Shown here: one piece after another, positions 12,296 to 44,210 of the stretch | How positions within the stretch are numbered: the stretch's first letter is position 1 | How the letters are laid out: each line of letters begins with the position of its first letter | Origin: Candidatus Manganitrophus sp. | GTDB taxonomy: Bacteria > Nitrospirota > Nitrospiria > SBBL01 > Manganitrophaceae | Reading direction: 5' to 3' | Length of the DNA: 64,000 nucleotides | Assembly (NCBI GenBank): GCA_028865235.1 | Contig: CP114561.1 | Span: 702,001 to 766,000 of the forward strand | Program-made: the position numbers and the translations under genes | Notes under the pieces: model-generated | What the model was told of the DNA's origin: nothing | The model's input: the letters and a program-made list of their open reading frames with translations, nothing else | Databases searched by the model: none

Positions 12296-13392
12296 TTATC
12301 TTTTCGGCCTTCATCCCGAAGACCTTCGCCACACCCGGATGGACCACCTTCCCGTCGTGGGTGTTGACGCCGGCCGCCAGGGCCGGGTCGGCTTCGATCG
12401 CCCGCTTGAAACCGAGTTGCGCCAATGCTTCAAGATAGTTGAACGTCACTCCGGTCAACGCGAAGGTCGAGCTCCTCGGCACCGCTCCCGGCATATTCGT
12501 CACACAGTAGTGCAGGACGCCGTCGACCTCGTAAACCGGCTCCGAGTGGCTCGTCGGGCGGGAGGTTTCGAAACAGCCCCCTTGATCGATCGAGACGTCG
12601 ACCACCACAGACCCTTTTTTCATCTTGGAGACCATCTCTCGTGTCACCAGATGAGGGGCCTTGTCGGCCGATCGGGCCACTGCTCCGATCACCAGATCAC
12701 TCGCCGCAACCTGCTCCGCAATGACATCATGGTAAGGAGGGAGGGTCACCACCTGTCCTCGAAAGAAATCGTCGAGATAGACCCGCCGCATGGCGTTTTC
12801 ATCGATCACAGTGACCGATGCTCCAAGTGCGAGGGCGACCTGCGCCGCATTTTTCCCGACGACACCCCCCGATCACGGTCACCCGTCCCTTTTCCACCCC
12901 GGGCACGCCGGAGAGGAGCAGTCCCATCCCGCCCGCTTGCTTTTGCAGATACTGGACGCCGACCAGGACCGACATCCGTCCCGCGACTTCACTCATCGGC
13001 CGGAGAAGAGGACGGCTGCCGTCGGCCGACTCGATCGTCTCATAAGCGATCGACGTGACCTTTCCTTTGAGCAATGCCTCCAACAGCGCAGGGTTGGCCG
13101 CCATATGGAGATAGGTAAAAAGAAGTTGGCCGGGATGAAAGAGCCCATATTCATTGGGAAGCGGCTCTTTCACCTTGACAATCAGGTCGGCCTGATCGAA
13201 GAGCGACGCTTTCGATGTAACGATCTCGGCCCCCGCGCTCCGATACGCGGCGTCGGGTATTCCGCTCCCCTCTCCGGCCCCGGCCTCCACCAGGAGCCGA
13301 TGGCCTTCTCGGTAAAGGGTGCTGACGCCGGCGGGGGTAACGCTGACGCGATACTCGTGATCTTTAATCTCTCTTGGTACGCCGACTTTCAT
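12291..13392 (-). CDS. ald: Alanine dehydrogenase, frameshifted
   Basis: This NAD-dependent enzyme interconverts L-alanine and pyruvate plus ammonia. The N-terminal half ([42 protein letters not shown]) runs to [11 protein letters not shown], where the frame breaks. The C-terminal half resumes with [16 protein letters not shown] and ends in [20 protein letters not shown]. Adding one base to the C6 run at 12865-12870 restores [22 protein letters not shown], the NAD-binding glycine-rich loop, and a normal length of about 367 residues. I chose the ATG at 13392 because family members begin [11 protein letters not shown] homopolymer consensus error is likely. Confidence 0.85.
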
Positions 13393-13514
13393 CTTCTGGA
13401 CGCGTACCCTAACAGTTTTGCTCAAAAAAGTCAATCAATTCGAGAGGAAATCATAATGCCGACGATGAACACGCAGACGCGCGAATGTGAAGATGTATAT
13501 AGATCGCGAAGCCT

Positions 13515-13541
13515 CCGCCCACATCGTTCGCGGAGGCGAAC
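13515..13541. other. Intergenic hairpin
   Basis: GCCTCCGC and GCGGAGGC form an 8-bp stem around a loop of about 11 bases in the gap between ald and bolA. It may be a terminator for bolA or part of the neighbouring repeat. Confidence 0.35.
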
Positions 13542-13572
13542 CATACAAATAGAGATCTTCTCCTCTCGGGTC

Positions 13573-13605
13573 GAAGATTCCCCGCTGCTTGCTGCGGGGA
13601 GCTTC
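13573..13605. repeat. REP-like palindrome (CCCCGCTGCTTGCTGCGGGG type)
   Basis: TCCCCGC (13579-13585) pairs with GCGGGGA (13594-13600), flanked by GAAG / CTTC. This kind of CCCCGC-tgcttgct-GCGGGG palindrome is a frequent dispersed intergenic repeat in several environmental bacteria. Another short palindrome, TCCCCG-a-CGGGGA, follows at 13615-13627. Confidence 0.5.
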
Positions 13606-13636
13606 AATATTTTGTCCCCGACGGGGAGATGGCCGA

Positions 13637-13930
13637 TTAGGTCGCCCCCTTCCACTCGCGCGGAGTCGCGGCCTTGATCGTAAGCGCATGGATCTCTTTT
13701 CCCATCTCGTCCTGCAAAGCGGAGAAGACCAACCGGTTCCGATTGAGAAGGGAGATTCCATCAAAACGGTCGGAGACGACCTGCAAAATGAAATGCCCTC
13801 CTCCCGCGGCCGCTCCCGCATGGCCGGCATGCTTCCAACTCTCATCAATGACCTCGACGAAAACCGCCCCCAACGATTCCTTCATCTTCCGTTCAATCTT
13901 TTGCCGTGTTGCCTCACTGGCGTCGCTCAT
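13637..13930 (-). CDS. BolA family protein
   Basis: This 97-residue BolA/IbaG-like protein belongs to a family that works with monothiol glutaredoxins in Fe-S handling and with envelope stress. The fold is recognisable: QKIERKMKESL at the N terminus, the conserved HAGHAGAAAGGGHFILQVVS in the middle, and the helix RLVFSALQDEMGKEIHALTI at the end. The ATG at 13930 (MSDASEATRQK) is chosen over longer in-frame starts because it fits the family length and follows a GGGGGAAG ribosome-binding site. Confidence 0.85.
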   Translation of the reverse strand: MSDASEATRQKIERKMKESLGAVFVEVIDESWKHAGHAGAAAGGGHFILQVVSDRFDGISLLNRNRLVFSALQDEMGKEIHALTIKAATPREWKGAT

Positions 13931-31815: not shown

Positions 31816-32223
31816 TCATCTAAAGGTCAACAAGCGATGGCCAAAGTAGCTTGTCAGGACCGGCACCAGCACTCCTGCTAAATGCCCTACCGCTTCGGCA
31901 TTTTCAATGACCCCGGCCGCCGGCAATACCCACCGGGCCAAGATGACACTTACGGTCAAAGTTTGCAATACCGCTAAAAAATTAATGAGAATAAACTTGG
32001 CAATCTGCGGTCCTAATGCCTTTCCTCTCGCCTCAAAAACATGCCCACGCATCAGGACAAAAGCCACAACCATTCCGACGAAGTAGGCTAAGACAACGGC
32101 AAACTCATATCTTGCCCAAAGGCTAAATATAAATCGAGATCCGTAGTTGGCGGCCGCCGCGATACCACCGGCGAGGAGGAAAAGGACGAGCTGCGGGGTC
32201 AGTATCGATGCCATGGTGTTCAT
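31816..32223 (-). CDS. GtrA family membrane protein (possible polyprenyl-phosphate-sugar flippase)
   Basis: This 135-residue protein has four TM helices. The GtrA hallmarks are FLLAGGIAAAANYGSRFIFS, FVGMVVAFVLMRGHVFEA and the C-terminal TSYFGHRLLTF. GtrA proteins help move polyprenyl-phosphate-linked sugars across the membrane. The mycobacterial homologue Rv3789 is encoded next to dprE1/dprE2, and here the dprE1/dprE2-like genes are 2.4 kb away in the same operon. I infer that it handles the polyprenyl-phosphate pentose donor. Confidence 0.85.
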   Translation of the reverse strand: MNTMASILTPQLVLFLLAGGIAAAANYGSRFIFSLWARYEFAVVLAYFVGMVVAFVLMRGHVFEARGKALGPQIAKFILINFLAVLQTLTVSVILARWVLPAAGVIENAEAVGHLAGVLVPVLTSYFGHRLLTFR

Positions 32224-32224
32224 G

Positions 32225-33523
32225 TCAAATCGCTACTTGCTTTGTAGCCATCTCAGCCATCTTTCGCCCAAATGCGATACTCTCTGAAATGCCTCTATCA
32301 TCCGGATAATAGTAGGAAGTGTCTGCCACCCACAAACCAGCCACGGGTAAGGCAACGGCGGGTAGCTTATTCAAATAGCCAGGTTCGCAAATAGGTTGGG
32401 CATACCGATAGCGGCTGGCGCGCAAATCGAGGAAATCTTCATCCCGAAGTGTTGAATTGATTTTCTTCAAATACCGTCGAACTTTGTCGAGAAATACCTG
32501 GTCTGGCTCGCTGAATTTCGGATGATCTCCAGGAATATAGAAGGGCACATACACCACATGATAATCAAGCGGACGCAGATTACTATACTCTACTAACCCT
32601 GGAATATCCATTTCAGGGTCATTCGTATTCAGCCAGAAATTCTCGGTCACAGATTTGCGCAATTTAACGATCACACACACCACCGCAATGCTCTTAACTG
32701 CCTTAAAAACTGCTAGTACTTCCGGAGGCAGGTCGGGCATCAGCCTAGGCACATATAACAACGGCACGGTGCTCACCACTTTATCAAAGGCTTCAAATCC
32801 GCCGGAGACTTCAACGCCTTTGACTCTACCGGCTTCAATTATGACTTTTAAAACGGCAGATTTAAGTCGCACATCTCCTCCACCTGCCTCGATAGCGGCC
32901 TTCATGGCTTGCAGAAGCGTTTCGGAGCCCCCTTCCAAATAACCCAGTTTTTCCCGGAATAGGTCATAACGGGAGGTCCCGATCCGTCGGATTCTGCTCC
33001 AAATCCAGGCTGCCGACAAATTATCGGCATAGTTGTAAAATTTATAGTCGAATAAACGGCGCCACAAAACTTCATAAGCCTCCGCTCCGACCCAGCGTTT
33101 AATCCAGCCTGTAGCCTCCATGTTATCAAGAGGACGCCAGTCTTTCCGCTTCGTTGCAAGAAATGCATGCAAACCATAGCGTAACTTTGCAAGTGGGCTC
33201 AACCCTTGGAACTTCAATAAAGCGATCGGGTTACCCCACGGCTGAAGTCTGTTTTGATACCAGTAGCCCATCTTGGTTTCGACCCAATGCATCTTTTTTT
33301 CCAAACCCAATTCTTCCAGCACCTTAAGAAAGGCGATGTCTGAAATACAATGAAAATGATAATAGCGCTCAATCGTGAGCCCATTGAAGTCAAATGAAGC
33401 AGTCATGCCACCAACACGATCATCTGCCTCGAAGATCACAGGTCTATGACCATCAAGAGCTAATTGGTAAGCCACAGCCAACCCCATAGGACCAGCGCCA
33501 AGTACTGCAATACGTTCCTTCAT
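32225..33523 (-). CDS. FAD-dependent oxidoreductase (protoporphyrinogen-oxidase / UDP-galactopyranose-mutase-like)
   Basis: This 432-residue flavoprotein has an N-terminal Rossmann FAD site RIAVLGAGPMGLAVAYQLAL followed by VIFEADDRVGGMTASFDFNG, as in amine-oxidase-like enzymes. Family resemblance is to NAD(P)/FAD-dependent oxidoreductases of saccharide clusters; a true UDP-galactopyranose mutase is less likely. It is adjacent by one base to GtrA and to an NAD-dependent epimerase, so it probably acts in the same sugar-donor pathway. Substrate is unknown. Confidence 0.75.
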   Translation of the reverse strand: MKERIAVLGAGPMGLAVAYQLALDGHRPVIFEADDRVGGMTASFDFNGLTIERYYHFHCISDIAFLKVLEELGLEKKMHWVETKMGYWYQNRLQPWGNPIALLKFQGLSPLAKLRYGLHAFLATKRKDWRPLDNMEATGWIKRWVGAEAYEVLWRRLFDYKFYNYADNLSAAWIWSRIRRIGTSRYDLFREKLGYLEGGSETLLQAMKAAIEAGGGDVRLKSAVLKVIIEAGRVKGVEVSGGFEAFDKVVSTVPLLYVPRLMPDLPPEVLAVFKAVKSIAVVCVIVKLRKSVTENFWLNTNDPEMDIPGLVEYSNLRPLDYHVVYVPFYIPGDHPKFSEPDQVFLDKVRRYLKKINSTLRDEDFLDLRASRYRYAQPICEPGYLNKLPAVALPVAGLWVADTSYYYPDDRGISESIAFGRKMAEMATKQVAI

Positions 33524-33524
33524 T

Positions 33525-34460
33525 TTAAAATTCCAGGATCACTTTACTATAATTAGAATCGTTAAAAGTCTCGTCAATCGCATGGGCGAACGGCGTGTAA
33601 GGAACCCCGAAAATACTCGGCCAGTCAATTACCTCAAATTCATCTTTTGCCACCAGTGCGGCGAGCTGCTGTGTGGTAAAAGGCGGATTTCGATCAAATA
33701 AAGCCCAGATCCAAAGCATCGAGTAAAATAGACTGTAGGGAATCTTTAAAATCACTGCGCGTGCTTTCGTGACCCGCTTAATCTCGCGAATGATGTCAAT
33801 ATAATCGATAGACTCGTGACCAGAAATATTGTAAATTCCATCCCGAATTCGTTTTTCAATACAGCTAATAATAATGTTGCAGAAGTCGCCCACATAGAGC
33901 GGTTGCCGTATGTAACGGCCGTGACCGGGTATCGGGAATACCGGCACTTTATTCATAAATCTCGAAAGCCACCCTAAGTGCTTCCTATCGAACCAGCCAA
34001 ACATCAGGGTAGGACGTAGCACCGGACAGACGATGCCACTCTCCAGCACGATCCGTTCCTGTTCTTTCTTTGTATTGGTATAGAAATCATCAGCTACCGA
34101 CTCAACCACCGAAGAGCTAATGTGCACAAAATAAGGAACTCCGTGCGCTTTGATCTCAGCTAATATAAGTCGGGTTGAATCAATGTTGTTCCGATAAAAT
34201 TCCTTTGGGTCATTCCCGCCAATTTGTGCTTGCAACATCACCACGATATCCGCATCCACAAAGTGACGGTGCCATTCACCAGGCTTAGCCAAATCAGCGT
34301 ACTCAACAATTACATCGGGCTGCATCCGCTTCAAAATGGCAAGGTTAGGGCGATGCTTGTCTAGAACAACAATATTAGAATAACCTTTAGCCTTAAGCCG
34401 GGCAACAAGGTTTTGGCCAACAAGGCCCGCGCCGCCAGGCAGCAATACTTTCCTGTTCAT
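33525..34460 (-). CDS. NAD-dependent epimerase/dehydratase
   Basis: This 311-residue extended short-chain dehydrogenase has the glycine-rich KVLLPGGAGLVGQNLVARLK at the N terminus, HISSSVVESVADDFYTNTKK (Ser and YxxxK-like) in the middle, and the sugar-binding YNISGHESIDYIDIIREIKR. It would act on a nucleotide- or lipid-linked sugar. It is directly followed by the FAD oxidoreductase on the same strand. The gene is AT-richer than dprE1 and others upstream in the operon. Product cannot be named. Confidence 0.8.
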   Translation of the reverse strand: MNRKVLLPGGAGLVGQNLVARLKAKGYSNIVVLDKHRPNLAILKRMQPDVIVEYADLAKPGEWHRHFVDADIVVMLQAQIGGNDPKEFYRNNIDSTRLILAEIKAHGVPYFVHISSSVVESVADDFYTNTKKEQERIVLESGIVCPVLRPTLMFGWFDRKHLGWLSRFMNKVPVFPIPGHGRYIRQPLYVGDFCNIIISCIEKRIRDGIYNISGHESIDYIDIIREIKRVTKARAVILKIPYSLFYSMLWIWALFDRNPPFTTQQLAALVAKDEFEVIDWPSIFGVPYTPFAHAIDETFNDSNYSKVILEF

Positions 34461-34601: not shown

Positions 34602-35345
34602 TCAAAATCTCATACGTTTGAAAACCACCTCCGGCATCCAACGGATAATCAGCATAATCAGAATCCAAAACCGGGGCGTGTAAAGGACATCGCATCGTTT
34701 CGAGATAGCCCGTCGAATGTCTCGCGCTACAAATTCCGCGCTGGCCGTCAAACGCTCAGGCAATTTGAGTTGAGCTGTCATTGCAGTCATCACAAATCCC
34801 GGCTTAACGGTTAGCACATGAACACCTGTCTTGAACAACCTTGCGCGAAGACCGGACGCGTAAGCATCGATTGAAGCCTTGGCAGCGCCATAAAGATAGT
34901 TGCTCGCCCTTCCCCGATCGCCAGCGACCGAACCCATCACCGTGATCACTCCCTTTCCCTGCAGTTTGAAACGTACAGCAAGTCCAGCAAGACAGGCGAT
35001 AACGCTTTCGGCATTGGTGCGAAACTCAGCAATCGCATAGGGAATATCGATCTCGGTTCGCTGCTGATCAGGCAGACTTCCATGTGCAATCAGTGCAATA
35101 TCAATTGCACCAAAGGCATTCCATGCAGAATCCAGCATTTTGTTAATGATATTGGTATCGTTGGCATCCATCACAAAAGTTTGGACTTCCTTTGCGCCGC
35201 GAGCGGTCAGATCCGTGGACAGCACCTGAAGTTTTTTGCTGTTCCTCGCCACCAGAAAAAACCGCGAGCCCTGCTCCGCGTAGCACCTCGCAACAGCTTC
35301 AGCAATACCTGAAGAAGCTCCGATGATAATGATCGTTTCACTCAT
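34602..35345 (-). CDS. DprE2-like short-chain dehydrogenase (keto-pentose reductase)
   Basis: This 247-residue SDR has the cofactor motif IIIIGASSGIAEAVARCYAE and the catalytic Ser/Tyr/Lys in MGSVAGDRGRASNYLYGAAK. A hydrophobic C-terminal helix ends the protein. It starts at the stop of the DprE1-like gene (four-base overlap), exactly the order seen in mycobacteria. In that pathway it would reduce decaprenylphosphoryl-2-keto-erythro-pentofuranose to the arabinose epimer with NADH. Function here is inferred from context plus resemblance. Confidence 0.8.
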   Translation of the reverse strand: MSETIIIIGASSGIAEAVARCYAEQGSRFFLVARNSKKLQVLSTDLTARGAKEVQTFVMDANDTNIINKMLDSAWNAFGAIDIALIAHGSLPDQQRTEIDIPYAIAEFRTNAESVIACLAGLAVRFKLQGKGVITVMGSVAGDRGRASNYLYGAAKASIDAYASGLRARLFKTGVHVLTVKPGFVMTAMTAQLKLPERLTASAEFVARDIRRAISKRCDVLYTPRFWILIMLIIRWMPEVVFKRMRF

Positions 35346-36658
35346 TGGGTCACTCGCTTCCAGAAGCGTGACATGAGTTGGGGATCACGCAAGGCTTCAA
35401 CCCTATTCCACTCCGGGTAGGCGTTTTTAAAATGTATTGCACTCATATGCGCATCCTTTGCTGGGTATAATCTTCCTCCGGCCTCGTGCACCAAGGCATC
35501 TAGCTTGGCAAACAGACGGTCATTCAGTTGATCGCGCTGTGGAAAATCAAGAGCCAAGGTAACGCCATGCAGCGGAAACGACAACAATCCGGGCGAGGCG
35601 AGTTCTCCACATTGCTTAAGCACCGCCAGGAATGAACCAGTGCCGCTGCGGGCGATCTCTTGCATAATGGCTCGAATGACTTCCCGCCCGTGTCGTTGAG
35701 GCACGACGCATTGAAATTGCTGAAACCCTCTCCGACCGTACATACGATTCCATCGCAGCAGGCGATCAAGCGGGTAGAAAAATGGATCATATCCAACACG
35801 GCAGGCTACTTCCTTTTTGCGTTGCCGATGATAATAAAGGGTGTTGAACACTCGCAGACTAAACCCATTCACTAGCGAGAACGGTAGCGCGATCGGCATG
35901 ATCAATTGGCCTGGTGGCGACAGACCAAGAGGGCCCTCCTTCGCGTGGTTTCCTACAATATAATGGCCCCGCCCCGCCTGTTTGCCGCTGGCCAGGCAAT
36001 CGATCCAAGCGACGGTATATTCATGGGAGGCATCATACGCCTGTGAGATTTCAAAAAACTCATCGAGTCCTCCAAATCGGATATTTCGGTGCTCGATCTC
36101 GCTGGAAGAAATGCGGCGCAGCTGAAGCTCAACAACCAGAATGATGCCGGTCAGGCCTAGACCTCCGATGGTGGCAGCAAAAAGGTCAGCACGCCGGGAG
36201 GGCGAACACTCAACCACCCCTTCGTCGCTGCGGTACATCACCAACCTCTTCACGTGGCGACCAAATGTGCCCATGACGTGATGGTTTTTTCCGTGCACGT
36301 CATTAGCGACCGCTCCCCCCAAAGTTACAAATTTAGTGCCGGGCGTAACAGGCAAAAACCATCCTCGCGGCAAAGCAATGCGAATGAGTTCAGCCAGAGT
36401 TATGCCGGACTGGGCTAGGATTACCCCCGTTTCCCAGGCGGCGGCAACAACGCGGTCCATACCCTTCATTGCGAGCACATGGTCTGATTCTGCCAGACAG
36501 GAATCTCCATAACTTCTTCCACAGCCGAAGGCAAGCGCATTATGATACCCAAGCTCTGAAATATTGGCCATAACCCGTGGTACATCCTCCGGCCAATGAA
36601 CCAAGTGAGGCGTTTGCGGATGGCGGGGATAATTCCCCCAAGAAAACAAAGGCGCCAT
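35342..36658 (-). CDS. DprE1-like FAD-linked polyprenylphosphoryl-ribose oxidase
   Basis: This is a 438-residue FAD oxidase of the VAO/PCMH type. The FAD motifs are FGCGRSYGDSCLA and GGAVANDVHGKNHHVMGTFGR, and TIGGLGLTGIILVVELQL follows. The C-terminal block YDPFFYPLDRLLRWNRMYGR / RGFQQFQCVVP is diagnostic of DprE1, as is the catalytic-Lys segment GRLYPAKDAHM. The Cys equivalent to mycobacterial Cys387 (NICVDFP) is Ala here (TLALDFP). It oxidises the C2-hydroxyl of polyprenylphosphoryl ribose. Its start abuts the stop of the UbiA fusion, and its stop overlaps DprE2. Confidence 0.85.
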   Translation of the reverse strand: MAPLFSWGNYPRHPQTPHLVHWPEDVPRVMANISELGYHNALAFGCGRSYGDSCLAESDHVLAMKGMDRVVAAAWETGVILAQSGITLAELIRIALPRGWFLPVTPGTKFVTLGGAVANDVHGKNHHVMGTFGRHVKRLVMYRSDEGVVECSPSRRADLFAATIGGLGLTGIILVVELQLRRISSSEIEHRNIRFGGLDEFFEISQAYDASHEYTVAWIDCLASGKQAGRGHYIVGNHAKEGPLGLSPPGQLIMPIALPFSLVNGFSLRVFNTLYYHRQRKKEVACRVGYDPFFYPLDRLLRWNRMYGRRGFQQFQCVVPQRHGREVIRAIMQEIARSGTGSFLAVLKQCGELASPGLLSFPLHGVTLALDFPQRDQLNDRLFAKLDALVHEAGGRLYPAKDAHMSAIHFKNAYPEWNRVEALRDPQLMSRFWKRVTQ

Positions 36659-38136
36659 TAGAAGGTTGCCAATGCAAAAACAATTACGAATGCAATCCCC
36701 ACCCAGCGACTGACCCCATCACGTAAGGCAAACACAATCGGGTCGTCATGCATTTCGCCTCGGTGTGCCAACAACCATACTCGACTGAGCCAAAAAAGAA
36801 GCAATGGACAAGCGGCCCACATCCATTCCTGGGAGCGATATAAGGTGCCGGAAGCCGTCTCACGGATATAAAGAGCCAGTACCAGGACCGATATATACCC
36901 AGAAGCGCCCCCCAGGGACGCCAAAAGTTCAAAGTCCGCTGGGTAGTACCCCCGACCGGATGACTCTTCTTTTTTGCCTTTTTGCCTGGCATCACGAAGC
37001 TCCGTATATCGCTTCAAGAACGCCAAGCTCAAAAAGATGAACATGCAAAATGCCAGTATCCAAAAGGTCGCCATCAGGAACATTGCCGCTGCACCTGCAA
37101 CAACACGGACAGTGTACAGCATAGCCAAAGTAACTACATCAAGCATTACAACACGCTTAAGCCAAAACGAATAGGCAAGCGTCAATATATAATAGACGGT
37201 AAGCACTCCAGCAAACCGGATAGGCAATAGCAATAACGCTACGATAAAAGCACCGAACAGAAGGACAGGTATCAGGAAAAGCGCATGAAGTATCGGTAAA
37301 GTACCAGCTGCTAAAGGCCGGCTGCGCTTGGTAGAATGCAATCTATCTTCCTGCAAGTCAAGCAGGTCGTTCAAAAGATAAACGCTCGATGCGCAGGCCC
37401 CGAAAGCAAGGAAAGCCAGCAGTCCGCTCTGAAGGAGTGGCATTTCCATGATACGGTGTGACGCAAGCAGGGGGACAAACACAAGCAGGTTCTTCGCCCA
37501 CTGATGGATGCGCAACGCCCTGATCAAAGTTCGGAGGTAGGGAAGGCGGCTCTCAAAAATTGTCTGAACCTGTCCGATCCTTCTGGCGGCAGCAAGCACT
37601 CCTCTATCCGGGTTCGCAACATGGATAACGGATGCCGATTTCCAAACAGCTAGATCATCAGAAGAGTTGCCCACATATTCGTACCCCTTCTCCCCATACC
37701 TTTGCACGAGCGCCTCACGCTTGTTGTCGGAAGAGAGATTGTTGCTTTCGGTGCCAAGCACCTCATCAAAGATGTTGAGGTGCTCAGCGATTTTTTTTGC
37801 AATACGCATATCGGTTGCTGTCGCAAGAATAAGGCTCGCTCCCTCGTTGCGCCGATTCTTCAGCCAGGCTACAAGGTCTTTGTTGTACGGCAATTGGCTA
37901 ACATCCGGAACCACGGCGTCCGCAAGACGACGTTTAAAATAGGCCTTGCCATTGAACAGCCAAGCGATCATCTCAAAAATGCGCAGGGGATAAAGACGGA
38001 GAAAAAGAAACAAGTTTTCGACCAGCATATCGGAGAGAAACAGTGTACCATCAAGATCAACTACGACGATGCCTTTCAGGGCGCGGGTCGCACCCTCCCG
38101 TTCTTCATTTACTTTGGAAGCGCTCCTTTCCATCAT
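36658..38136 (-). CDS. HAD phosphatase-UbiA prenyltransferase fusion (polyprenyl-phosphate phosphoribosyltransferase-like)
   Basis: This is a 492-residue two-part enzyme. The N-terminal HAD domain (about 20-190) has IVVVDLDGTLFLSD (DxDGT nucleophile), ILATATD and NSSDDLAVW. The C-terminal UbiA domain (about 205-490) has eight to nine TM helices with the first Asp motif NDLLDLQEDRLHSTKRSRPLAAG-type and a second motif around YTVRVVAGAA. UbiA enzymes such as Rv3806c transfer PRPP to a polyprenyl phosphate, and the HAD half could remove the 5-phosphate. It sits beside DprE1 and DprE2, supporting this reading. Start overlaps the stop of the preceding gene. Confidence 0.82.
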   Translation of the reverse strand: MMERSASKVNEEREGATRALKGIVVVDLDGTLFLSDMLVENLFLFLRLYPLRIFEMIAWLFNGKAYFKRRLADAVVPDVSQLPYNKDLVAWLKNRRNEGASLILATATDMRIAKKIAEHLNIFDEVLGTESNNLSSDNKREALVQRYGEKGYEYVGNSSDDLAVWKSASVIHVANPDRGVLAAARRIGQVQTIFESRLPYLRTLIRALRIHQWAKNLLVFVPLLASHRIMEMPLLQSGLLAFLAFGACASSVYLLNDLLDLQEDRLHSTKRSRPLAAGTLPILHALFLIPVLLFGAFIVALLLLPIRFAGVLTVYYILTLAYSFWLKRVVMLDVVTLAMLYTVRVVAGAAAMFLMATFWILAFCMFIFLSLAFLKRYTELRDARQKGKKEESSGRGYYPADFELLASLGGASGYISVLVLALYIRETASGTLYRSQEWMWAACPLLLFWLSRVWLLAHRGEMHDDPIVFALRDGVSRWVGIAFVIVFALATF

Positions 38137-40910
38137 CGTTCTTCACTTTCCTGCAGAGCCGCGGGCGCCTCTTTCGTTAGGCTTGAATTCTTCGGCAGTA
38201 ATAACCGGCATCCCTGCACTTCTGTCTGCAGCCATTCATCGGTCCCGAAACGCTGATCGATCTGTTCATTCGGCCCCTTCTCAAGACGGCAGATCACTAC
38301 CGCCCCCAAAGAAAGATTACCGAGAAAGCGGGCAGGCTCAGCAAGAACCCGATCGAACTGACTAAACCAAACGGGAACCGTAAAGGACTTTCTTTGGGAG
38401 TAAAAGGCGATGTCGCTGTCCCAATCGTTTCCGAAAACAACAATGCCGGAGTCGGGCGACGTCGATCGACGGACCGCTTCTCCCACGGCCAGCGCACGCT
38501 CATGCGGCGACGTCGACGACGCGTCGATCTGCCTGCGTGCGACGGTTCCGTATCCCCTGCTGAACATAAATAAATTGCAAATCACCAGTAGTGTCGTGAC
38601 GGCGGGAACCACAGCAGGGTGAGCAAAAACACTCGGCAACCAGCCCGCAACCGCGACGGCCAGAGTACCGAGGAGAAATAACATACACCCGGCCTGGTAA
38701 TAGTTGTGAACCACATGAAGATTCGTGAATATCAAAATCGGCAGCGCAAACAAGACCATCCCGCCGGCGATGATCATTCGCAAACGGGCGGTGCCCGCCA
38801 CAAGAGCCCCGGCGATCAGAACGAACCCTAAAGGTCCGCTTGCGTTGAGCACGAAACCCCGATCCCAGAAGACTTCTTTGTACGTGGAAAACGCCAGTTT
38901 TTGCTGAAGGGTGCCGAAGTTCCATTGACTGAGTTTCGCCGAAGTAAGCTGAGCGCCAAAAAGATTTTCCATCTTCACCGCATCGGAATATTGGACCCAG
39001 CCGTAAGCCGCCAGCATCGGGAGACCGAACGCGACGATTACCGACAGAACCGTCTTCCACGACGGAAGGCGCAGGCCGCCGCCCCGCCACCAAGCGATAA
39101 GCCAGATGCAGCCCAGAACTATAATCACCGGCCCCCCGGTCGTGATTTTCTGAAGCGCCGCCAGCGTCGCAAATAGGGAACAGAGCATCACCGATTGCCA
39201 GCGAGGATTAGACTCACGGAGATCAAGCGCATAGGGCACCGCTGCAAAAGCAAAGAACAACGCTGCCGTTTCAATCATGAAGGTCCTACCCCAGAATAAA
39301 TAGATCGGACTGGACCACAACAGAGCACAGAAAACCCATGCCACTTGCTTCGGCAATGCCAGACGGCGGACGACTCCAAACGCAGGCCAGGCGCAGGCTA
39401 AGAGAAATGCAAAACTTACAAGGCGTCCTACAGGTTCAAGACGAAGACGACTGACCCGAACAACCAACGCCACTATGGATTGATAAAATGGGAATTCGAA
39501 AGGGATGGCCCAAGGGTATCCGGCCACCGGCGTTTGGTACGCAAGCTGCCATCCCTCGCGTACCATCCAAAACGCGCTTAACGCAGTCTGGGTTTGACGG
39601 AATCCGTAGGACTCCAATATTGGCTGGCCTGCGTACCGGATCGCGATCCATGCCGCGAAAACGGCGACCCCACAGGCGAGCAGCTTGACCATCCGGTCCC
39701 GACTCAGCCACTCCATTCGATCGCTACAATGACGTATCCAATGAATGGTCCGCTCCGATGAAAATTTTCCGCCGAAAGGGAGTCCTGACTCAAACTTTTT
39801 ACCGATACGGATCGAAGGTTTTTCGATGCAACGATGAAAGATCTCTGCGATCGACAGAACGCTCACCATGGCAACCGCCATCGATATAAAAAACGAAGGA
39901 GTGGAACCGAAACCCTGAGCGTAAATCCAGCCATAGACCGGCGTCAACCGCCACACGATCACCGCATGAACCAGATAAATGCTGTAACTGCGAAGGCCGC
40001 ACCAGATGAGGGGACGTCTTGCAAAAATCCCCTTGGGCCAGAGGGCCAACCAAACGGTCAGGAAGCAAAAAGTGACGGCAAGGTAAATCCCATCCGCTTG
40101 CTTCGACTGCAGCCAGCCACCCAGTGGGGTGGCGTGAGGCGTAACAAACAGCAAGACCGCTATGACAGGTGCATAAATAATAAACCCACGCGCTTCGGAC
40201 AAAAATCGGAAGGATTTAAAAATCCAATATGCAAGGATGCCGGCAGCGAAATAAGCAATATTGGCAATAAAGCTGATGTGCTCATAACCGGGTGGACTCC
40301 CGGCTTTGAGAATTAATACCCGCCCGACTATCAATGAGATCGCACTGAGTACGAAAAACAAGAATGCTCTATTGAGCGAATTAACCAGCAACATCAGCAT
40401 TGGGAAAAACGCGTAGAAAATTACTTCGACGCCAATTGTCCAGCCGGCCATAACAGAGCTTTCATGCTTCCCCGGCAAAAAATTGAATATCATAAGAAAA
40501 TTCGCGAGAAATGTCTTATCAAAAAATGGCAATCCCCAGGTGTAATGATTATGAACGGTGAAAAACAGGAGTACGACCCAGAATGGTGGCGCAATCCTGA
40601 AAAACCGTCTCCAAAAATACTTATCGATCCATCCGGCCGCGCCGACATATCGGCTCGTAGTGTAGCAGAGGGAAAATGCGCTCAATACGAAAAAGAGCTG
40701 GACACTGTTGCCAAAATAATTCTGGATAAATGACGCCCCCTCCGGAAATTTTACGTTCGGAAGAAAGTGGAACAATGTGATGGCCAGCGCTGCCAGACCT
40801 CGAAGACCATATAACGAATCCAGAACAGCTGTTTCTTCTTCCTGCGTGGGAAGATCGGTCACCTTATGAGCCTGTCTTTCCACCTCTTTTTTGGCTTCTG
40901 CCAGCATCAC
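38133..40910 (-). CDS. Acyltransferase 3-GT-C membrane glycosyltransferase fusion
   Basis: This encodes a 925-residue polytopic protein. Residues about 30-390 are an acyltransferase-3 (OafA/NodX-like) domain with LYGLRGLAALAITLFHFLPN (invariant H), FWRRFFRIAPPFWVVLLFF and YSIYLVHAVIVW. Residues about 420-925 are a GT-C-type membrane domain of the PMT/ArnT style (IRYAGQPILESYGFRQTQTA, about 11 TM helices) with a C-terminal periplasmic part. It could acylate and glycosylate the same glycan. The fusion is not one I can recall, and no frameshift is apparent. It lies directly before the UbiA fusion in the operon. Confidence 0.75.
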   Translation of the reverse strand: MMLAEAKKEVERQAHKVTDLPTQEEETAVLDSLYGLRGLAALAITLFHFLPNVKFPEGASFIQNYFGNSVQLFFVLSAFSLCYTTSRYVGAAGWIDKYFWRRFFRIAPPFWVVLLFFTVHNHYTWGLPFFDKTFLANFLMIFNFLPGKHESSVMAGWTIGVEVIFYAFFPMLMLLVNSLNRAFLFFVLSAISLIVGRVLILKAGSPPGYEHISFIANIAYFAAGILAYWIFKSFRFLSEARGFIIYAPVIAVLLFVTPHATPLGGWLQSKQADGIYLAVTFCFLTVWLALWPKGIFARRPLIWCGLRSYSIYLVHAVIVWRLTPVYGWIYAQGFGSTPSFFISMAVAMVSVLSIAEIFHRCIEKPSIRIGKKFESGLPFGGKFSSERTIHWIRHCSDRMEWLSRDRMVKLLACGVAVFAAWIAIRYAGQPILESYGFRQTQTALSAFWMVREGWQLAYQTPVAGYPWAIPFEFPFYQSIVALVVRVSRLRLEPVGRLVSFAFLLACAWPAFGVVRRLALPKQVAWVFCALLWSSPIYLFWGRTFMIETAALFFAFAAVPYALDLRESNPRWQSVMLCSLFATLAALQKITTGGPVIIVLGCIWLIAWWRGGGLRLPSWKTVLSVIVAFGLPMLAAYGWVQYSDAVKMENLFGAQLTSAKLSQWNFGTLQQKLAFSTYKEVFWDRGFVLNASGPLGFVLIAGALVAGTARLRMIIAGGMVLFALPILIFTNLHVVHNYYQAGCMLFLLGTLAVAVAGWLPSVFAHPAVVPAVTTLLVICNLFMFSRGYGTVARRQIDASSTSPHERALAVGEAVRRSTSPDSGIVVFGNDWDSDIAFYSQRKSFTVPVWFSQFDRVLAEPARFLGNLSLGAVVICRLEKGPNEQIDQRFGTDEWLQTEVQGCRLLLPKNSSLTKEAPAALQESEER

Positions 40911-41029: not shown

Positions 41030-42028
41030 TCATACTTTGGCATAGACCACCTCGCCCTTCAAGGTGCGCCCGCCAAAAACCAAAACCGCTCCACCGAGTG
41101 CAACCGCAAACCATAATGTGGCCAATCGAATAATCATCGTCGCCGCGACCGCCCGGGCCTCCGGCATGCCTGACCACAAAAGCAGCCCGACCATCACCGC
41201 TTCCGCACTTCCCAAACCGCCCGGTAAAAAACTAAGTCCACCGGCCAACATGGCCAGTGCATACACAGAAAACGCAAAAGAAAGGCTCACCTCAAACCCC
41301 ATCCAATGCAAGATCAGATGAAAGGCGTAAGCCTCCGCCGACCACGCAACCAGGCTTAACACGGTAGCGGAGAGCAATAAGGTTGGCGTCAGGCAACGGC
41401 TCGCCTCTATCAGCAACAACATTAACTGATGGATAACTCGGGCTGGCCGCCCGACGCGCTCAGAAGTTCGCTCCCCAAGCGCTATCAGCCATTTTTTTTG
41501 CGATAATAAGAGGAGTCCTGTGCCGACTACAGCGATACCGATCAACACGGTGATGCCTCCTTGCGGATAGAGCGTACCCCCCAGCATGGCTAACAGGACA
41601 ACGGCCACAAGGTCGGAGAGTCGCTCACTGAGAAAAGCCGCAGTACTCTGTTTGTATGGCATGCCTCGCGTCTTTAAGAATATCCCACGCAGCAATTCTC
41701 CCGCCTTTCCAGGTGTCGTCGTTAACGCAAAGCCTGAGATATAGATGAGGCCGCTGGGCACTGCAGGCACGGGATAACCCAAAGCGCTGAGATAAAACTG
41801 CCAACGCACAAACCGCAAGCTGTAATTGACGAGAGATAAAACCAAGACGATTAACAGCCCTGCCGTACCCACAGCGTCGAACGCCGCGAGCACCTCCCGC
41901 CAGCCACCCCACAGAGAAAAGGCCAAATATCCAAAGGCAGCCGCCGCAATAGAACCCATCAGCGTATACAGCTTGCGGCCTTGCAGCACCTCTGCGATCA
42001 TATCGATCTCATCATAGTAACAGTCCAT
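41030..42028 (-). CDS. Lysylphosphatidylglycerol-synthase-TM / UPF0104 flippase-like protein
   Basis: This 332-residue protein has about seven to eight TM helices. Segments diagnostic of the family include SLVNYSLRFVRWQFYLSALG, TPGKAGELLRGIFL and LPGGLGSAEAVMVGLLL. Related proteins (UPF0104, AglD) are membrane components of glycan pathways and may flip or transfer polyprenyl-linked sugars. Start is either the ATG at 42028 or the internal ATG at 42001. It sits between the AftB-like GT-C and the AT3-GT-C fusion. Confidence 0.8.
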   Translation of the reverse strand: MDCYYDEIDMIAEVLQGRKLYTLMGSIAAAAFGYLAFSLWGGWREVLAAFDAVGTAGLLIVLVLSLVNYSLRFVRWQFYLSALGYPVPAVPSGLIYISGFALTTTPGKAGELLRGIFLKTRGMPYKQSTAAFLSERLSDLVAVVLLAMLGGTLYPQGGITVLIGIAVVGTGLLLLSQKKWLIALGERTSERVGRPARVIHQLMLLLIEASRCLTPTLLLSATVLSLVAWSAEAYAFHLILHWMGFEVSLSFAFSVYALAMLAGGLSFLPGGLGSAEAVMVGLLLWSGMPEARAVAATMIIRLATLWFAVALGGAVLVFGGRTLKGEVVYAKV

Positions 42029-42107: not shown

Positions 42108-44084
42108 TCATTTTTCCCCAGGCAATTCCACACCAAATACCAACCAATCGTAGGCAGGACTTCCGTTGTTATTTACATAGACTATTACGACGCTGCTGTC
42201 AGTGCGTAAAAAAACCCGATCCATTGGCGTCCCCTGCCTGACCTCATTTTGAAATAAGACGGTATTCCTGCTGTCAACAATCTTCACAATGACATTTCCT
42301 GTTTCATGGGGTGCCTCTTTCGGTAAATCAGCGATATGCGCCCAATAATTTCCGGAACAGTCGCTCTGACATTGAACTTCCAAAACCGTATCGGTTGTTT
42401 CGCCCGGATGGATAAACCACTCGGACGTCGCAGCAATCCGATCAACCTTCCCCCACTTATCTCCAAGACTGACGGCCCGAACCAGCGTTCTATTTTTAGG
42501 CGGCATTCCGTTTTGAATTTTTTGATATAGGCGCGCTCCCGTTCCGATCAAGGGCTTCCAGAAGTCGACATTAAACTCTCCAACCAGTTCGTACTGTTCG
42601 TTTATCAACTGTTTTGAACATTCGCTGTATGAACCCTTCCAGCTACAGACCAGATATTTTGGTTTGTAGGTGCGCATCGCGTAGTCGCTGTCTCCCCGCA
42701 GCAATGCCTTCGCAACACCCGGTGTTATTAATCCCAGTTCATCAATGATTGTAAATTTAGGTCCTAACCTAAAACCAAATGAACCCGGTTCGAACATCTG
42801 AATAACGGCCCCATCCGGTTCTACGCGCCGCAGGTAATCCGCAATTTCGCTGTAGGCATAAATATGTTCGTTGATGTTTTTGCTTCGGGACCACTGAACG
42901 AATTTCCCCGATGCGCCGAGCGCCAGAAGCGCGATAACAACGATTGGGGCAGCCCGTAAAAAATCAGCTAATCCCTTTTCCTGCGCCAGACGCTTTGAAG
43001 CGATGGTGAATTGATCAAGAATAACCCGCCAACCGACAAAGCTTGCGACCCCGAGAGAAAACAGCACAGGGATACCATACCAACGCCAAAAAGTGACATT
43101 GAAAGAAAAGTAAGCAGAGGCGCTGCCGAAGCCGAAGAGTAACCATGCAATGGCGATAAAGAGTCCGCGATCATGTAATAACGTACTTAGAACCCGTGTT
43201 CGAGCAGCCATCCAAATACATGCAAGAAGTCCCATTCCTATCACAGACAATGCGGCGGCGCCGGGGGTATCGATTACATATTTAAATAAATTAAGAGGAT
43301 TGTAAAGAGGCCAGTATCCCAGCGCAACTTGCGCCTTCTTGGCATCCATCGTCCCCGGGGTGGGTTGTCCGAAGTGCACCCATAGATAGACGAGCCACGG
43401 CACGATGACGGCTAAAAATCCAGTGGAGAAGCGCCAGAAATTTCTGCTTGTAAGATAATTCCGCCACCCCAACCGGCTCTTTGCCCAGTCCAGAAACACC
43501 AGGATCGGAGCAAAGAGTACCGTGTCCGGCCTGAATGTGGCGGCAATGGCCAGAGTACATCCCGCTATGGCAGCTTGTGCATTACTCGCGAGAACTGTGG
43601 CCAGGAAAGCAACGGCCAAAAACGTGTAGGTCTCATGGCCTGCCACTTCGTTGAATGGAAATCCAACAAAGAGATAGATGGCAAAAATAGAGCTCACAAG
43701 CCATCGCGACGCACTCTTTCCAGTTTCAAAGACATACGGCAGACAAACTGCAATCATGGCGAGCGACAGGGCTGAAAGAGCGACAGAAACGCTCTGAACG
43801 GCCGGCGGCCTCCCCCTCTGGAAGATCAGATCACATACGCCTGACAGCATCGCCAGGATCACCGCATAGCCGGCGGCCGTCGTTCCATAATATCTTTCGC
43901 CGACATTGAAGACAAGACCAAATCCCTCCTTCAAATGATAAGCGTATCGGTAGGTGATAAATGAGTCGTCGACGGAATAGCCTTTGTTTCTTTGGTAATA
44001 AACGATCCCAAGAAAAAGGGTTCCAAAAATATAAATGATTCGTAAATACTTTGTCGGATGCCGTATATTTTCGAAAATATTCAT
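42108..44084 (-). CDS. GT-C membrane glycosyltransferase, AftB/TfpW-like
   Basis: This 658-residue enzyme has about ten TM helices (to about residue 400) and a periplasmic C-terminal part of 250 residues. The N-terminal loop YSVDDSFITYRYAYHLKEGF / GLVFNVGERYYGTT has the double-Asp and RYA motif of arabinofuranosyltransferases such as mycobacterial AftB and of pilin-modifying TfpW. Such enzymes use polyprenyl-phosphate furanose donors. The ATG at 44084 follows a GGAAG ribosome-binding site, so it is preferred over the longer 26-residue extension. Its donor is plausibly the product of the UbiA-DprE module. Confidence 0.8.
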   Translation of the reverse strand: MNIFENIRHPTKYLRIIYIFGTLFLGIVYYQRNKGYSVDDSFITYRYAYHLKEGFGLVFNVGERYYGTTAAGYAVILAMLSGVCDLIFQRGRPPAVQSVSVALSALSLAMIAVCLPYVFETGKSASRWLVSSIFAIYLFVGFPFNEVAGHETYTFLAVAFLATVLASNAQAAIAGCTLAIAATFRPDTVLFAPILVFLDWAKSRLGWRNYLTSRNFWRFSTGFLAVIVPWLVYLWVHFGQPTPGTMDAKKAQVALGYWPLYNPLNLFKYVIDTPGAAALSVIGMGLLACIWMAARTRVLSTLLHDRGLFIAIAWLLFGFGSASAYFSFNVTFWRWYGIPVLFSLGVASFVGWRVILDQFTIASKRLAQEKGLADFLRAAPIVVIALLALGASGKFVQWSRSKNINEHIYAYSEIADYLRRVEPDGAVIQMFEPGSFGFRLGPKFTIIDELGLITPGVAKALLRGDSDYAMRTYKPKYLVCSWKGSYSECSKQLINEQYELVGEFNVDFWKPLIGTGARLYQKIQNGMPPKNRTLVRAVSLGDKWGKVDRIAATSEWFIHPGETTDTVLEVQCQSDCSGNYWAHIADLPKEAPHETGNVIVKIVDSRNTVLFQNEVRQGTPMDRVFLRTDSSVVIVYVNNNGSPAYDWLVFGVELPGEK

Positions 44085-44210
44085 TACAACTTCCAATAAA
44101 ACCTTGAAATAACCATAAAGTCCCGCAAGGTCTAACTGGTCAAATTGCCTGCCGCACACATCGTGGGCTGCTACAGGGAATATCTTGCAAGAGACCCAAG
44201 AAAAGGAAAA

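Follow-up and report, generated by a model that had tools for sequence, protein, structure and literature searches.

The locus examined here raises the question of whether a single polypeptide carries out both the transfer of phosphoribose to a lipid carrier and the removal of its 5'-phosphate. The window, a 64,000-nucleotide stretch of a Candidatus Manganitrophus sp. genome, harbors a gene at positions 36658-38136 in which the original prediction had placed a UbiA prenyltransferase fused to a HAD phosphatase. Both the gene and the fusion proved real. The gene is one uninterrupted ORF of 492 codons with an ATG start on the minus strand, which the prediction had left unstated, and the plus strand of the same region is interrupted by many stops in the frame read. 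The gene and its two domains are as follows.

36658..38136, minus strand: HAD-UbiA fusion, predicted polyprenyl-phosphate phosphoribosyltransferase and phosphoribose 5'-phosphatase, 492 aa
37552..38073, minus strand: HAD (PRP-like) domain, residues ~22-195, with D27, D29, T106, K139, N157 and D161
36664..37539, minus strand: UbiA domain, residues ~200-491, with R209, K215, Y253, N256, D260, K270, R273, Y322 and K327 corresponding to the Rv3806c PRPP site

The motifs VVDLDGTLF and NDLLDLQEDRL were located at residues 25-33 and 256-266, respectively. Pfam matched UbiA in the C-terminal half (E 1.8e-21) and HAD in the N-terminal half with 24.8 bits (E 3.4e-5), just missing the gathering score of 27. 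The fusion belongs to a family already catalogued in NCBIfam, PRK08238 (NF006088), whose model matched residues 23-491 with 628.7 bits at a cut-off of 351. A search of genome contigs gave 73 loci, and 74 sequences were aligned. Some 70 homologues keep the HAD motifs with little or no variation, so the fusion is not a chance observation.

The identity of the UbiA half was addressed by comparison with solved proteins. A single-sequence search returned Rv3806c as the sole match to the fusion, and the family profile (A1) matched the Rv3806c DPPR synthase (8j8j/8j8k) with an E value of 2.9e-48, the next UbiA protein following at 3.4e-9. Rv3806c was also the top fold match of the predicted fusion model (pLDDT 92.8, pTM 0.88). 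Nine Rv3806c residues (R22, K28, Y70, N73, D77, K87, R90, Y138 and K143), reported to bind PRPP or Mg2+, including the 5'-phosphate and pyrophosphate of PRPP, correspond to R209, K215, Y253, N256, D260, K270, R273, Y322 and K327 in the fusion, and these positions are invariant or nearly so across the 74 aligned sequences. The UbiA motifs comprise N256, D257, D260 and D264 (NDxxDxxxD) and R376 and E379 (KRxxE). The Rv3806c residue in contact with the ribose O3, Gln135, is replaced by Thr319 in the fusion; threonine stands at this position in 68/74 aligned sequences, making this a lineage-wide difference. The NCBIfam equivalogs for DPPR synthase (PRK12324) scored 157.5, 143.4 and 116 bits on the fusion, all under their cut-offs of 207, 234 and 474. 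The protein was originally labelled a DPPR synthase; the expected lipid would be undecaprenyl phosphate and not decaprenyl phosphate.

These residues also bear on an alternative in which the UbiA domain is an aromatic, quinone-type prenyltransferase and the substrate of the HAD domain is some unrelated metabolite. The general UbiA match in Pfam would fit such an enzyme, and the NDxxD motif is common to UbiA enzymes; however, the residues that bind the 5'-phosphate and pyrophosphate of PRPP in Rv3806c are kept in the fusion, and its matches to other UbiA structures are far weaker. The 4-hydroxybenzoate UbiA model TIGR01474 gave 21.9 bits on the fusion against a cut-off of 275.45. A separate UbiA in the genome exceeded the same cut-off with 306.5 bits and adjoins an ORF read as UbiD-like, so that the fusion would not be needed for ubiquinone. 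Taken with the DprE1/DprE2-like neighbors described below, this makes the aromatic alternative extremely improbable, and phosphoribosyl transfer from PRPP is the reading retained for the UbiA half.

The HAD half carries the residues of motifs I (D27/D29, DxD), II (T106), III (K139) and IV (D161), and these five residues are conserved. The first position of motif IV is Asn157, with asparagine found in 54/74 and aspartate in 19/74 of the aligned sequences. In the fold comparison, the HAD half of the predicted model resembles phosphoserine phosphatases. As a separate observation, HAD proteins related to the fused domain but encoded on their own adjoin serA-like genes at three loci (L118, L120 and L121); these were considered as SerB replacements and rejected, as the same genomes have their own serB.

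Asn157 is the starting point of a second alternative, in which polyprenyl-P-ribose-5-phosphate is the product of the UbiA domain, its phosphate is removed by a different enzyme, and the HAD domain is inactive or serves a structural purpose. Many HADs carry aspartate at this position; on the other hand, the remaining catalytic HAD residues are kept in about 70 homologues. Further evidence on both sides comes from ORF15 (PRP-PPPRS, AWU66546.1) of Citrobacter youngae O1, as described by Kelly et al. 2024 (PMC11127046). ORF15 has the same domain order, an N-terminal HAD followed by UbiA, shares the NDxxD and KRxxE motifs and made farnesyl-P-ribofuranose from PRPP. It was assayed as membranes, together with the D18A mutant of the HAD nucleophile and UbiA-domain mutants. 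The ribose-5-phosphate product accumulated with D18A, which argues for dephosphorylation by the HAD domain, while some dephosphorylated product remained, and other phosphatases may thus contribute. The motif spacings of the two proteins are very similar: the nucleophile lies 229 residues from the asparagine of NDxxD and 349 from the arginine of KRxxE in the fusion, and 229 and 348 in ORF15 by the published numbering. The L091 protein, the sole match with the right motif spacing in an Enterobacterales sample, was tried as ORF15 and rejected, as DprE1 adjoins its gene and its nucleophile, judged from the ORF, is not at position 18.

Unfused relatives provide a different view of the phosphatase step. 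Nine unfused PRPP-type UbiA loci (L067, L071, L075 and L112-L117) were retrieved with wide flanks, and the neighbors were inspected at eight of them (all but L114). The surroundings differ from locus to locus, with a phosphatase candidate at some of them. At L115 and L117, a divergent PAP2 (DUF212) gene adjoins UbiA along with GtrA, DprE1 and DprE2, and a DUF212 match was also found at a further, short locus (L105). At L116, a stand-alone HAD-IB gene lies some 4 kb downstream of UbiA, separated from it by GtrA, DprE1, DprE2 and a PMT_2-type gene, and at L075, where neither a DprE1 nor a DprE2 match was found, a HAD-IB ORF overlaps the end of UbiA. At L067, which has DprE1 and DprE2, a metallophosphoesterase that may carry a signal sequence (12841-13779) follows DprE2, its relevance being uncertain. 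Inspection of the listed neighbors at L112, L113 and L071 revealed no clear phosphatase. The DUF212 and HAD-IB queries gave no matches at any of the window-type fused loci searched. The presence of separate phosphatase genes at some unfused UbiA loci and the lack of DUF212 and HAD-IB matches at the fused loci searched support a phosphatase role for the HAD domain, although the unfused loci are few.

A phylogeny of HAD-UbiA fusions had been proposed as a check, and it pointed to more than one fusion event. The proteins encoded at L124:7961-9934 and L125:8040-9620 combine a PRPP-type UbiA with a different, HAD-IB, N-terminal domain and group with unfused UbiA in the tree. A tree uniting all fused proteins was rejected (p-AU 5.6e-6, to be read with caution because of long branches). 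These two proteins represent a second, independent HAD-IB-UbiA fusion. Together with the varied phosphatases beside unfused relatives, it provides comparative support for the phosphatase step, and an inactive HAD domain is considered very unlikely. The original prediction that both steps reside in one polypeptide is most likely correct, as sequence, structure prediction, gene context and the ORF15 precedent of the same architecture agree.

The end product of the route was then considered from the surrounding genes, which include the dprE1/dprE2-like pair noted originally, directly downstream of the fusion and on the same strand.

35342..36658, minus strand: DprE1-like FAD oxidase (polyprenyl-P-ribose 2-oxidase), NF053785 348.9 bits, solved DprE1 E 2.5e-66
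34602..35345, minus strand: DprE2-like SDR reductase, NF053786 178 bits, best solved match DprE2 E 4.8e-30
33525..34460, minus strand: extended SDR (NAD-dependent epimerase family)
32225..33523, minus strand: PRK07233 flavin amine-oxidase-like protein
31816..32223, minus strand: GtrA-family protein, a candidate for flipping the lipid-linked sugar
38133..40910, minus strand: acyltransferase-3 (residues 33-351) with a long hydrophobic C-terminal half
41030..42028, minus strand: LPG-synthase-TM/flippase-like protein, candidate alternative flippase
42108..44159, minus strand: large hydrophobic protein, GT-C-like by inspection alone

The fusion shares 4 bases with the upstream gene and 1 base with DprE1, which in turn shares 4 bases with DprE2; these genes are therefore probably co-transcribed. 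The DprE1- and DprE2-like proteins fall under their NCBIfam equivalog cut-offs (348.9/500 and 178/250 bits); nonetheless, their best matches among solved proteins are DprE1 and DprE2. Pfam gave no match in the 42108..44159 product or in the C-terminal half of the 38133..40910 product, and this hydrophobic half might be a GT-C transferase. In the DprE1-like protein, the cysteine of VCVDFP in solved DprE1 (4aut), which we take to be the benzothiazinone-target cysteine, is replaced by alanine (LALDFP), and judging from the sequence this protein might be naturally benzothiazinone-insensitive.

On the basis of its domain order, catalytic and PRPP-site residues, predicted fold and gene context, the fusion is very probably a bifunctional polyprenyl-phosphate ribofuranose synthase feeding a lipid-linked arabinofuranose route, both reactions having been shown for ORF15, a protein of like architecture. 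The UbiA domain would transfer ribose-5-phosphate from PRPP onto a polyprenyl-phosphate lipid carrier, and the cytosolic HAD domain would remove the 5'-phosphate via the Asp27 nucleophile to give polyprenyl-P-ribofuranose. The adjacent DprE1/DprE2 pair would convert this to the arabinofuranose epimer, which may be flipped by the GtrA or LPG-type protein and placed by a GT-C transferase onto a surface polysaccharide. For this copy we infer the activity, lipid, end sugar, flippase, transferase and acceptor glycan.

Arabinose as the end product rests on the local neighbors, as most fused loci are without a match to both DprE1 and DprE2. Scripted labelling of the 73 loci found both genes with the fused gene at 19 and DprE1 alone at 2 more, the loci without a DprE match including ones cut by contig ends. 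The Acidobacteria fused loci showed RND-efflux-like and pheST-like neighbors by inspection, which were uninformative. In one group of loci without DprE, among them Sneathiella and Methylococcales, the gene immediately after the fusion encodes an SMR-type transporter. Loci of this group favor an alternative end product, polyprenyl-P-ribofuranose or another pentofuranose, as does the extended SDR at 33525-34460, which could epimerize another position. Against this, the DprE1- and DprE2-like genes directly follow the fusion in the window, the lysine of the DprE1 AKD motif aligns in the DprE1-like protein, and homologs of this pair are reported in candidate systems for Araf-containing glycans in PMC11127046. 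A product other than arabinofuranose is thus unlikely at this locus, and arabinofuranose is retained.

The order HAD-UbiA, DprE1, DprE2, extended SDR, PRK07233 flavoprotein and GtrA is kept at seven loci (the window, L003, L008, L018, L030, L061 and L111), with an extra gene between DprE2 and the SDR at L111, and the extended SDR has a YxxxK-like pair at 7/7 of them. No description of the SDR, flavoprotein and GtrA trio downstream of DprE2 was found in the parts of PMC11127046 examined. The six-gene module could perform lipid-linked pentofuranose chemistry beyond arabinofuranose, for example with an oxidized or otherwise modified pentose, a suggestion that we consider quite unlikely. Closest to the fusion are relatives from a proteobacterial MAG (L003), at 76% across the alignment, and from Crenothrix (L004), and none of five same-genus genomes gave a match over the family cut-off, which suggests horizontal acquisition. 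L035, which bears the label Nitrospira, does not differ in the columns of the tree from a same-class genome, and the genome of the window therefore probably falls in the class of Nitrospira.

Several known systems share features with this locus. PRK08238 covers the full-length fusion under the name 'UbiA family prenyltransferase', which makes no mention of a phosphoribosyl function. Rv3806c of Mycobacterium tuberculosis shares the UbiA fold of the PRPP:polyprenyl-phosphate phosphoribosyltransferase and the nine PRPP-site residues, but it is without a HAD domain, and the phosphatase that goes with it is Rv3807c, a distinct and unrelated protein. Mycobacterial DprE1 and DprE2 are tuberculosis drug targets. 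The concept of transfer and dephosphorylation by one polypeptide was already published in 2024 (PMC11127046). That paper also describes gPRT-PRP dual-domain ribofuranosyltransferases, which follow the same two-step logic with a HAD phosphatase fused to a PRPP-using transferase; however, their transferase domain shows no relation to UbiA, and its acceptor is a glycan rather than a lipid phosphate. The Citrobacter O1 system, as described there, involves ribose (xylose via an epimerase in O2) and a MATE flippase, whereas the window locus carries DprE1/DprE2-like genes and GtrA. With the present locus, this recently described way of making lipid-linked pentofuranoses with a two-in-one enzyme is found in a further organism and linked to DprE1/DprE2-like genes.
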